DNA of 64,000 nt from positions 1 through 64,000 of the forward strand of contig CANFWV010000008.1 of assembly GCA_947450695.1 (NCBI GenBank). The letters run 5' to 3'. The translations under genes were made by a program, and so were the position numbers. Below, in pieces: positions 23,022 through 25,890 of the stretch. The notes beneath the pieces were generated by a model, which did not search any database, had not been told where the DNA came from, and saw nothing but the letters and a program-made list of their open reading frames with translations. Source of the stretch: Comamonadaceae bacterium. Its GTDB lineage: Bacteria; Pseudomonadota; Gammaproteobacteria; Burkholderiales; Burkholderiaceae_C. Positions within the stretch are counted from its first letter, which is position 1, and each line of letters opens with the position of its first letter.

Positions 23022-24146
23022 TCAGCGGGCGCGTCTGGCCTTCACGGACTGCGACAAGCCTTCCAGCAACTCCAGCGAATCGCCCCAGCTCAGGCAGGCG
23101 TCGGTGATGCTCTTGCCGTATTCCAGCGCCTTGGGGTCATCCTTGCCGGGCGTGAACTTCTGCGCACCCGGATTCAAATGACTTTCCACCATCAGGCCAA
23201 AAACCTGACGTGAGCCACCGGCGACTTGGCCGGCGATGTCCCGCGCCACTTCCAGCTGCTTTTCGTGCTGTTTGGAGCTGTTGGCGTGACTGCAGTCAAC
23301 CATCAGCGTGGCGGGCAATTTGGCGGCTTCGAGGTCCTTGCACGCGGCGTTGACACTGGCGGCGTCATAGTTCGGTGCTTTGCCACCGCGCAGAATGACG
23401 TGGCAGTCCGGGTTGCCGTTGGTTTGCACAATCGCCACTTGGCCGTTTTTGTGAACCGACAAAAAGTGGTGACCACGCGCCGCTGCCTGAATCGCGTCGG
23501 TGGCGATGCGGATGTTGCCATCCGTGCCGTTCTTGAAGCCAATCGGGGCCGAGATGCCTGACGCCAATTCGCGGTGCACCTGGCTTTCAGTGGTCCGCGC
23601 GCCAATCGCGCCCCAAGCGATCAAATCACCGATGTATTGCGGTGAAATCACGTCCAAAAACTCGCTGCCCGCGGGCAAGCCCATGCGGTTGATGTCGATC
23701 AGCAACTGGCGTGCAATGCGCAGGCCTTCGTCGATGCGGTAGCTCTCGTCCAAGTAAGGGTCATTGATGAGACCCTTCCAGCCGACCGTGGTACGCGGCT
23801 TTTCAAAGTACACACGCATCACGATTTCCAGCGTGTCGGCGTATTTGTGGCGCTGCTCAACCAGTTTGCGGGCGTACTCCAAGGCAGCCATCGGGTCGTG
23901 GATCGAGCAAGGGCCAATAACCACCAACAGTCGGTCGTCGGTGCCCGCCATGATGTTGTGAATGTTGTGCCGAGTCTCGGTGATCAAACTCTCGACAGGC
24001 GTGCCGTCAATTGGAAAGAAGCGAATTAAATGCTCGGGAGGTGGAAGCACGGTGATGTCCTTGATGCGTTCGTCGTCTGTCTGGCTTGTTTTGTAGACAG
24101 GACTCGCATAGCGGGCTTCGCTGGTGTTCTGGACTGACGCATTCAT
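23022..24146 (-). CDS. aroG: Class I DAHP synthase (3-deoxy-7-phosphoheptulonate synthase)
   Basis: First enzyme of the shikimate pathway: phosphoenolpyruvate plus erythrose-4-phosphate to DAHP. 374 residues of the E. coli AroF/AroG/AroH type, with VVIGPCSIHDP, FEKPRTTVGWKG, KNGTDG, DCSHANSSK and GLMVESHLNPG giving the metal and PEP sites. AAGGAA precedes the ATG. Which aromatic acid feedback-inhibits it cannot be read from the sequence. The 5' leader carries an aromatic-rich leader peptide and a terminator (see the separate entries), so expression is probably attenuated by charged aromatic tRNAs. Confidence 0.95.
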   Translation of the reverse strand: MNASVQNTSEARYASPVYKTSQTDDERIKDITVLPPPEHLIRFFPIDGTPVESLITETRHNIHNIMAGTDDRLLVVIGPCSIHDPMAALEYARKLVEQRHKYADTLEIVMRVYFEKPRTTVGWKGLINDPYLDESYRIDEGLRIARQLLIDINRMGLPAGSEFLDVISPQYIGDLIAWGAIGARTTESQVHRELASGISAPIGFKNGTDGNIRIATDAIQAAARGHHFLSVHKNGQVAIVQTNGNPDCHVILRGGKAPNYDAASVNAACKDLEAAKLPATLMVDCSHANSSKQHEKQLEVARDIAGQVAGGSRQVFGLMVESHLNPGAQKFTPGKDDPKALEYGKSITDACLSWGDSLELLEGLSQSVKARRAR

Positions 24147-24185
24147 GACGGGCTTCCTTGTGGGTTAACTGGGGAATTCGGGTGC

Positions 24186-24218
24186 AAAAAAAAACCGCCG
24201 GAGGATCCGGCGGTTTTT
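24186..24218 (-). terminator. Attenuator terminator in the aroG leader
   Basis: On the minus strand, ACCGCCGGA and TCCGGCGGT form a perfect 9-bp stem with a 3-base loop (plus 24194-24214), extended by A/T pairs, followed by nine T residues (24194-24186). It ends 39 bases before the aroG ATG, in the leader and not after a gene, so its action would be to stop aroG transcription. The A-run on the other side makes it potentially bidirectional, but aroG and tldD both run on the minus strand. Confidence 0.9.
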
Positions 24219-24269
24219 GAGATTCAGCTGCGTTTTCTAGGCTTACGCAAGGATCTCTCTACCGCCGAA
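24206..24269 (-). promoter_or_regulatory. Predicted antiterminator pairing of the aroG leader
   Basis: The leader-peptide segment TTCGGCGGT (plus 24261-24269, Phe17-Gly19 codons) can pair over all nine bases, one a G-U wobble, with the 5' arm ACCGCCGGA of the terminator (24206-24214). The same segment can instead pair locally as CGCC-TTC-GGCG. These mutually exclusive structures are what a ribosome-position attenuator needs. Confidence 0.7.
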
Positions 24270-24317
24270 GGCGCTTGAGAACCAAAAGTAAGAAAAATAA
24301 AATGCGGCTGAATGCAT
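24243..24317 (-). CDS. Aromatic-rich leader peptide of the aroG attenuator
   Basis: A 24-codon open frame (ATG 24317-24315, TAA 24245-24243) in the leader of the DAHP synthase gene. Residues 6-13 read FYFSYFWF; in all it holds five Phe, two Tyr and one Trp, eight aromatic residues of 24. Its stop lies 25 bases before the terminator stem. By analogy with trpL and pheL, stalling at Phe/Tyr/Trp codons would allow the antiterminator to form. No Shine-Dalgarno sequence is visible; a TACATT (24330-24325) would place the transcription start next to the ATG, so translation could be leaderless. That promoter guess is weak because no -35 is spaced correctly. Confidence 0.82.
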   Translation of the reverse strand: MHSAAFYFSYFWFSSAFGGREILA

Positions 24318-24354
24318 AGGGGTCAATGTAGCACAGGTGCGTTAGGCTCAGTCA

Positions 24355-25890
24355 TCAAGCGGTCCCGCCGACCGTCAGGCCGTCGATCCGCAGGGTCGGC
24401 TGACCGACGCCCACGGGCACGCTCTGGCCTTCCTTACCGCAGGTGCCTACGCCGCTGTCGAGCGCCATGTCATTGCCCATCATGGTCACGCGTGTCAGCG
24501 CATCAGGGCCGTTACCGACAATCGTTGCGCCCTTGACGGGGTAGAGAATTTTGCCGTTTTCAACCCAGAACGCTTCGCTGGCCGAGAACACAAATTTACC
24601 GGAGGTGATGTCGACCTGACCGCCGCCGAAGTTAGTGGCGTAGAGCCCCTTCTTGATGCTCGCCACAATCTCTTCGGGCGCCTTGTCGCCGCCTAACATA
24701 TAGGTGTTGGTCATCCGCGGCATGGGCGTGTGCGCGTAGCTTTCGCGGCGACCGTTGCCTGTCGGCTTGACCTTCATCAGGCGCGCATTCAGCGAGTCCT
24801 GGATGTAGCCCTTCAAGATGCCGTCTTCAATCAACACATTGCGCTGGCTGGCATTGCCTTCGTCGTCCACATTGAGGGAACCGCGACGATCGGCCAAGGT
24901 GCCATCGTCCAGCACCGTCACGCCTTTGGCTGCAACGCGCTCACCAATGCGTCCGGCAAAAGCGCTCGAACCCTTGCGGTTGAAGTCGCCCTCCAAGCCG
25001 TGACCAATCGCTTCGTGCAACAAAATACCGGGCCAGCCGGAGCCCAGAACCACGGTCATTTGACCGGCTGGCGCGGGGCGAGCTTCGAGGTTGGTGAGGG
25101 CCGCTTTGACCGCGGCATCGACATATTCATTGATCTGATCTTCGTCGAAATAAGCCAAGCCAAAGCGACCGCCACCGCCGCCCGAACCCATTTCGCGCCG
25201 GCTCACGCCAGCAATTTTTTGCTCGGCAATTACCGTCACGCTCAAGCGCACCAGTGGTCGCACGTCAGCCGCCAACGTACCGTCGGCGCGGGCCACCATG
25301 ACCACGTCATATTCGCTGGCCACGCCGGCCATGACTTGCACCACGCGCGGGTCTTTGGCTTTAGCGAGTTTTTCGATTTGCTCCAGCAATTTGACTTTGG
25401 CGGTGCTGTCGAGCGAGGCAATCGGGTCGATATCGCTGTACAGCGAACGGCTGCCAGCCACCTTACGGGTGTTGGTCTTGACCCGGCCAGCTTGGGTGGC
25501 GGCTGAAATCGTGCGCACGGTGCGAGCAGCGTCGAGCAGTGAGGCTTCAGAAATATCGTCCGAGTACGCAAAAGCAGTTTTTTCGCCGCTGACTGCGCGC
25601 ACGCCAACGCCTTGGTCAATGCTGAAAGAGCCAGTTTTGACAATGCCTTCCTCTAGGCTCCAGCCTTCGCTACGGGTGTACTGAAAATACAGGTCAGCGT
25701 CGTCAACGCCGTAAGACGTGATCTCGCCCAAGGCGCGGCGCAAATGCGCTTCGGTCAGACCAAAGGGTGCCAGTAACAACTTTTCAGCAATGGCCAAGCG
25801 CTCAGACGTCGCGTCGGCTTGGGGCCGGGCGCTGGGCGCAAAAAAGTCTGTTTTACGAGCTGAACCGGGGGAGGATTTGAGTGACACCAT
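24355..25890 (-). CDS. tldD: TldD, metalloprotease
   Basis: 511 residues; large subunit of the TldD/TldE (PmbA) zinc protease that degrades unstructured peptides and matures microcin B17 in E. coli. The motif LLHEAIGHGLEGD gives the HExxxH zinc site. The N-terminal ~25 residues are extra relative to the core. No tldE/pmbA gene is adjacent. On the same strand as aroG, but the interval of ~208 bp with its own leader suggests aroG is transcribed separately. Confidence 0.95.
   Translation of the reverse strand: MVSLKSSPGSARKTDFFAPSARPQADATSERLAIAEKLLLAPFGLTEAHLRRALGEITSYGVDDADLYFQYTRSEGWSLEEGIVKTGSFSIDQGVGVRAVSGEKTAFAYSDDISEASLLDAARTVRTISAATQAGRVKTNTRKVAGSRSLYSDIDPIASLDSTAKVKLLEQIEKLAKAKDPRVVQVMAGVASEYDVVMVARADGTLAADVRPLVRLSVTVIAEQKIAGVSRREMGSGGGGGRFGLAYFDEDQINEYVDAAVKAALTNLEARPAPAGQMTVVLGSGWPGILLHEAIGHGLEGDFNRKGSSAFAGRIGERVAAKGVTVLDDGTLADRRGSLNVDDEGNASQRNVLIEDGILKGYIQDSLNARLMKVKPTGNGRRESYAHTPMPRMTNTYMLGGDKAPEEIVASIKKGLYATNFGGGQVDITSGKFVFSASEAFWVENGKILYPVKGATIVGNGPDALTRVTMMGNDMALDSGVGTCGKEGQSVPVGVGQPTLRIDGLTVGGTA

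Follow-up and report, generated by a model that had tools for sequence, protein, structure and literature searches.

A candidate ribosome-mediated transcription attenuator before the DAHP synthase gene aroG of Burkholderiales

The interval between tldD and aroG in a Comamonadaceae bacterium probably holds a ribosome-mediated transcription attenuator of aroG, the gene of a class I DAHP synthase. We put the probability of this reading at about 0.9, inferring both the mechanism and the response to aromatic amino acids from sequence. The original prediction of such an attenuator before DAHP synthase now draws support from conservation, co-variation and calculated stall geometry. Ribosome-mediated attenuation is classical; the case of aroG in the Burkholderiales appears to be new and, by comparison of its leaders, is well supported. 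If it operates as proposed, it provides a concrete, testable point at which a large group of environmental bacteria could control the entry of carbon into aromatic biosynthesis.

The tldD-aroG interval

The window, the whole 64,000-nucleotide stretch of DNA that was analysed, has tldD (25890-24355) and aroG (24146-23022) on its minus strand, separated by a gap of 208 bases. Read from tldD toward aroG, this gap contains an extended -10 box, a 24-codon open reading frame (ORF) and a terminator with nine T. The features, as read or predicted, are:

24325..24333, minus strand: extended -10 promoter element made up of TG (24333-24332), one base n and TACATT (24330-24325), with its end 7 nt upstream of the leader ATG
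24243..24317, minus strand: leader peptide ORF, MHSAAFYFSYFWFSSAFGGREILA, 24 codons, its aromatic residues conserved with synonymous codon changes
24279..24302, minus strand: putative control codons F6 Y7 F8 S9 Y10 F11 W12 F13; the masking calculation switches right after F13
24270..24273, minus strand: segment 1 (CGCC), a possible partner of GGCG in segment 2, with weak support
24261..24268, minus strand: segment 2 (UCGGCGGU), left strand of antiterminator helix A
24256..24259, minus strand: left strand of antiterminator helix B (GAGA)
24219..24222, minus strand: right strand of antiterminator helix B (UCUC)
24207..24214, minus strand: segment 3 (ACCGCCGG), which forms either the terminator's 5' arm or, with segment 2, the antiterminator
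24186..24218, minus strand: intrinsic terminator, 13-bp stem, 3-nt loop and nine T, the first T pairing with A of the 5' arm
24153..24159, minus strand: Shine-Dalgarno-like AAGGAAG before aroG, read from the sequence
23022..24146, minus strand: aroG, class I (AroFGH type) DAHP synthase, the regulated gene (TIGR00034 match over cut-off)

The leader ORF (24317-24243) lies where it had first been placed, 171 to 97 bases before the aroG ATG, and eight of its 24 residues are aromatic, seven of them within FYFSYFWF. Among the 704 ATG-started ORFs of 12-40 codons on the two strands of the window, it has seven aromatics in nine residues and the next best has five; this density, together with conservation, rejects a chance ORF. 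No Shine-Dalgarno site is seen before it. The terminator had been described as a 9-bp stem followed by nine T; the nine T (24194-24186) and the nine pairs are there, and the stem (24218-24190) is longer, with four further A-U pairs bringing it to 13 bp and, with its 3-nt loop, to a folding energy of -19.9 kcal/mol. The pairing originally proposed between 24261-24269 and the terminator 5' arm (24214-24206) extends over 9 of 9 positions, one of them a U-G. The leader RNA of the window folds at z = -4.8 relative to dinucleotide shuffles, a value for part of which the terminator itself accounts. A terminator scan tool listed no terminator at the window's leader, probably because its stem and tail rules are unfit for a stem that runs into the T tract. 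A small GCGU...ACGC hairpin lies across the leader stop codon (24230-24248) and recurs in the genus.

AroG is the only DAHP synthase found in the host genome, which is 92.7% complete, so that a further copy could be missing from the assembly; a class II enzyme has no match there. A second PF00793 match in the same genome, a 292-residue frame on another contig, would be KdsA, judged by its size. Other genomes of the genus do contain further DAHP synthases, about 50-55% identical; none of five such copies (L180-L184) has an aromatic ORF upstream, in stretches that include just 120 bases for L180 and start inside the gene for L183. These extra copies may consequently escape control by the aroG leader.

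Distribution

A search of 61 genomes for AroG matched 55, and the 30 best loci, one of them the window's and the other 29 from its genus, all carry leader and terminator, the leader being 24 codons long in 29 of them and 22 in one. R1, a covariance model built from these 30 loci, found matches in 94 of 100 sampled genomes of the family and in 52 of 300 genomes of the order, the own genome being included in both sets, with one match per matched genome. The matches examined covered 88 of the 94 family genomes (G351, G207, G350, G374, G416 and G344 were left out) and 51 of the 52 order genomes; all 134 of these matches have an AroG homologue downstream, no more than 420 nt from their end, and each overlaps the picked leader ORF. 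Strands were compared at 100 loci. The best evidence that the element regulates aroG is that a search of whole genomes lands only upstream of AroG.

A wider model, R2, was applied to the 300 order genomes, to class-wide genomes and to named loci. It matches 82 of the 300, and 76 stand after a check of context, G207 being counted among them without inspection of its locus. AroG is present at 24 of the 30 genomes that R2 added (L165 and L174 included) and absent at 6. Inspection of the 30 extra order matches showed AroG, on the expected strand, at the loci of 22; the loci of the other eight (E 9e-4 to 0.009) have no AroG, and these eight were put down to chance. Three of the 22 weak R2 loci upstream of AroG lack an ATG-started ORF with at least four aromatics in nine residues. 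Across the class, R2 matches 14 of 321 genomes: three matches are in the family, four others (L185-L188) lie upstream of AroG, and seven (E 5e-4 to 0.006), weak and with no AroG in the locus, were set aside as chance. R2 matches 74 of the 80 named loci at E of 1e-4 or better; the remaining six comprise one that is cut off (L238), one that has diverged (L267) and four from Polynucleobacter without an aromatic ORF.

As a control, the regions upstream of AroG in R1-negative genomes of the order were searched by the same ORF criterion (ATG start, at least four aromatics in nine residues). No aromatic ORF is present in 13 of 15 such regions; the other two contain leader and terminator and are misses of the model. 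Five of the controls (L175-L179) are, as the tree suggests, of a different AroG type and not true counterparts. Where the element is found, its ORF, aromatic residues, segment-2 RNA and promoter box recur over 12 families. The environmental bacteria concerned include Polaromonas, Acidovorax, Variovorax, Comamonas, Hydrogenophaga, Rhodoferax and others. The element is widespread in the Burkholderiales, not universal.

Several loci call for remarks on the counts that follow. L031 is the window over again (the same as L001). L072, for which the wrong frame was picked, is left out of counts over 162 and 158 leaders and is inside those over 163. Helix counts, over 158 leaders, also leave out L080, L115, L120 and L153 (motif or terminator pattern not found), and in them L092 and L096 have the anchor out of register.

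Codon constraint and RNA constraint

A family-wide alignment had been proposed as the check on the element, and it finds the aromatic codons, the stem and the antiterminator conserved, with compensatory changes. F8, Y10 and F11 are invariant in 30/30 genus loci as their codons vary (TTT/TTC, TAC/TAT). Aromatic residues make up 30.8% of all residues in 162 leaders, and the order and length of the aromatic run vary (FYFSYFWF, FYFYFWF, FFFAYFWF, FYFYFFW). On this comparison, the run is kept as amino acids. Joint control by Phe, Tyr and Trp, as originally suggested, fits the presence of Phe in all 162 leaders and of Tyr in 160, and fits less well for Trp, which occurs in 130 and whose codons are absent from 32; sensing of all three would therefore be usual, not universal, codons being no proof of response. 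The amino acids sensed in practice would most likely be Phe above all, then Tyr, then Trp.

The segments that follow the run are conserved in a different way. GGC-GGT-AGA-GAG is nearly fixed as RNA among the 30 genus leaders. GGCGG is present in 141 of 163 leaders, in reading frames 0, 1 and 2 in 93, 6 and 42 of them, and the core GGCGG...GAGAG is translated, according to frame, as GGREI, ADGEA or RRRK. By this evidence the antiterminator core is kept as RNA. That it is read in three frames makes a peptide-level constraint on the C-terminal half of the leader unlikely, and a constraint on peptide sequence there is rejected by the frame changes across families. An RNA core that is independent of frame, placed next to a run conserved as amino acids, constitutes a natural experiment separating the two kinds of constraint.

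Terminator and antiterminator helices

A strong hairpin stands beside a T run in 163/163 leaders (median -20 kcal/mol over the stretch folded). The competing structure consists of two helices: helix A, formed by segments 2 and 3, and helix B, formed by the GAGA just downstream of segment 2 and the UCUC upstream of the terminator. Each of the five core pairs of helix A is present in 153-158 of the 158 motif-anchored leaders. (On the alignment made by the model itself, whose rows were out of register, 588 of 752 cells were paired; motif-anchored blocks were used instead.) At L094, L095, L102 and L127, helix A has double changes from G-C to A-U and segment 4 is still GGCGG, which indicates that segment 2 keeps pace with segment 3 irrespective of the terminator.

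Swap tests bear on the same point. In helix A, 1024 of 1106 cells are paired; the 5000 shuffles, which redealt segment 3 among leaders, never exceeded 1017. Helix B, which has no role in the terminator, has a native mean of -6.2 against -5.1 when permuted (sd 0.14; lowest of 2000 permutations -5.6). Because relatedness inflates such tests, they were repeated on 12 family averages, which yielded p values of 0.0013 for helix A and 0.003 for helix B. Seven of the 12 families beat their own swaps for helix A (f4, f8, f20, f23 and f44 do not) and eight for helix B (f12, f20, f32 and f40 do not). Within the genus the pairs hardly vary and there is little gain in co-variation; more generally, core positions vary little, so that the co-variation rests on few positions. 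The antiterminator excludes the terminator in these models and appears to co-vary, with an effect that is modest at the family level. Segments 1 and 2 pair in 98.3% of the cells of the genus alignment; in the wide set, the corresponding protector hairpin (median -5.1 kcal/mol, median z -0.5) is no better than shuffled sequence.

Stall geometry

The position of the stalled ribosome was related to RNA folding by keeping about 31 nt from pairing and computing the antiterminator probability for each A-site codon. In the window this probability is 0.03 without a ribosome. It is near 1 for an A site anywhere in codons 1-13, drops to 0.79 for codon 14 and is about 0 for codon 15 and beyond; the aromatic codons of the leader end with codon 13. 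Averaged over 158 leaders, the probability is 0.87 on the aromatic run and 0.03 from two codons past the run onward. The last permissive codon lies near the run in 101 of the 158, and in 98 it is at most two codons from the last aromatic. In 51 others of the 158, segment 2 becomes free again once the ribosome is 10-16 codons beyond the run, on the stop codon or close to it, and in six the probability never exceeds 0.5 at any codon. By calculation only, then, a ribosome at the control codons would free the antiterminator and one past them would block it. Folding of four leaders in full has the complete terminator winning at equilibrium in three, the window's among these, which requires the switch to be kinetic, decided before segment 4 is copied.

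A leaderless start

The extended -10 element keeps its position in the set of 163 leaders. In 130 of the 163 a hexamer carrying A2 and T6 lies upstream of the ATG with its end 6-8 nt away, most often 7 nt (mean 23, maximum 35 in 200 shuffles), and in 147 a pyrimidine immediately precedes the ATG. Shine-Dalgarno-like sites precede only 3 of the 163 leaders, against about 14 by shuffling, and are therefore rarer than chance; for aroG, a lenient count has them ahead of one or more candidate starts in 133 of 160. The combination of a -10 box about 7 nt before the ATG with the rarity of Shine-Dalgarno sites predicts that transcription begins on the leader ATG or immediately beside it. The mRNA of the leader is therefore probably leaderless and its ORF translated as such, a feature that the original prediction did not include. 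A leaderless start raises the question of how the message loads ribosomes fast enough to match the polymerase.

Proposed mechanism and alternatives

The following sequence of events would account for these features. Transcription would start at or next to the leader ATG, and ribosomes would load on the leaderless mRNA. When tRNA-Phe, tRNA-Tyr or tRNA-Trp is poorly charged, a ribosome would stall in FYFxYFWF, leaving segment 2 free to pair with segment 3 as the latter emerges, helix B aiding; this pairing would precede synthesis of the 3' arm of the terminator, and RNA polymerase would read into aroG. When charging is good, the ribosome would cover segment 2, segment 3 would pair with segment 4, and transcription would stop after about 130 nt. 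The net effect would be that the cell makes AroG mainly when aromatic amino acids run short.

The conservation of the peptide admits a different reading. It is highly conserved in the genus, its 24-codon length being kept in 29 of 30 leaders, and it might arrest the ribosome by binding to the exit tunnel or to an aromatic amino acid in free form; TnaC exemplifies such nascent-peptide arrest. The aromatic run varies in order and length, however, and across families the C-terminal half is read in three frames while the RNA stays, making arrest by the peptide an improbable explanation, to which we give about one chance in twenty's weight. The near-invariance of the RNA core, which is more than pairing alone seems to need, might instead point to a leader that binds a metabolite or a protein (a riboswitch, a T-box or the target of an RNA-binding regulator) and overlaps a short ORF by chance. 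This is less probable again: at gathering score, an Rfam search of the window returned no matching family and no T-box, rejecting a T-box or known riboswitch; none of the 38 Rfam matches that the 208-base intergenic region gives with E as high as 10 is a T-box; and such a leader would leave the aromatic codons unexplained.

Least probable of all is that the hairpin is a plain terminator of tldD adjoining an accidental aromatic ORF, with the aroG promoter downstream of both. A terminator between the two genes would be useful by itself, and tldD does end just upstream, at 24355; yet the ORF, the aromatics, the segment-2 RNA and the promoter box recur, wherever the element is found, over 12 families, and segment 2 co-varies with segment 3. 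Attenuation by a translating ribosome remains the preferred reading.

Relation to known systems

NCBIfam and Pfam have no match to the leader peptide. The Rfam Phe_leader family (RF01859) aligns over the same stretch at 22.0 bits (E 0.11), short of its gathering score of 55 bits. The E. coli pheA and pheST leaders likewise consist of a Phe-rich ORF and then a terminator. The aroG leader resembles them in this plan and in the weak alignment; it differs in the genes regulated and in falling far below the Rfam cut-off.

A search of paper texts found no report of a DAHP synthase attenuator in the Burkholderiales. The original note knew of none for a betaproteobacterial DAHP synthase; outside the order the design has precedents, the Corynebacterium aroR-aroF attenuator and a candidate before Acholeplasma aroF. 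The gene aroG goes unnamed in the text consulted of PMC2965389, PMC10175445 and PMC7798474, in the main text of a paper on B. cenocepacia start sites (PMC4603805) and in that of a B. cenocepacia study (PMC5688073) that describes 82 short 5'UTR transcripts arising from processing or attenuation.

The closest parallel in design is the aroR-aroF attenuator of C. glutamicum, reportedly described by Neshat et al. in 2014. Excerpts of three papers (PMC4046766, PMC7356990, PMC11802643) give Corynebacterium a Phe-Tyr-Phe leader peptide before DAHP synthase; in C. glutamicum, Phe limitation raises transcription and Tyr availability is, per one review as excerpted, without effect. The likeness lies in an aromatic leader peptide upstream of a DAHP synthase; Corynebacterium belongs to a different phylum, and its aromatic run is shorter. 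In Acholeplasma, the uORFC-13-1 motif upstream of aroF is a computational attenuator candidate based on 24 sequences (PMC8632094, in part). It shares with the aroG leader an upstream ORF with Phe codon(s) and a terminator before a DAHP synthase gene; it differs in having a ribosome binding site, in that only Phe codons are named in that text, and in its unrelated host. Attenuation of E. coli aroF was once hypothesised, according to the same text (PMC8632094).

For the predicted leaderless start there are also precedents, each taken from excerpted text. The ilvB leader of C. diphtheriae can be leaderless (PMC5784534), and trpL (rnTrpL) of Sinorhizobium meliloti, a proteobacterial attenuator, is a small leaderless mRNA that starts with the AUG of its leader ORF (PMC10117765). 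In contrast to the aroG leader, trpL senses Trp only and lies upstream of trpE; the RNA and peptide of rnTrpL have further functions (PMC10117765).

Evolution

When presence of the leader is mapped on a tree of 73 AroG pieces, 7 changes suffice, where shuffled labels require 19. The four class-wide loci L185-L188, which represent two families outside the Burkholderiales, have aroG with the same kind of leader, and their AroG sequences form one group (99/90) among those of the Burkholderiales, beside L068 (96/76). This nesting suggests that aroG moved out of the order together with its leader, a placement that is not beyond doubt.

Loss seems to have occurred within Polynucleobacter. Two of its loci (L248, L256) keep leader and terminator; four (L268, L269, L271, L272) have no aromatic leader ORF before aroG, and in L268 (1460-1500) only about 30 bases separate tldD from aroG. 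Two AroG sequences from the group lacking the ORF fall together with two leader carriers (98/95), which suggests that the leader was probably lost in some Polynucleobacter.

A broader picture can be offered tentatively, as one that we think rather less than an even bet. The leaderless peptide would be a combined gauge of three aromatic tRNAs for the entry enzyme, having arisen early in the Burkholderiales, been lost in some lineages and moved out with aroG; the RNA of about 130 nt, released when aromatics are plentiful, may act in trans like rnTrpL. The terminated leader may show up in RNA-seq sets as an unexplained small RNA.

The diverged locus L267 retains a recognisable leader and terminator (1315-1445) that R2 misses at E 1e-4; its segment 2 is GGGGCGG and its terminator arm GCCGCCCC, a further paired change.
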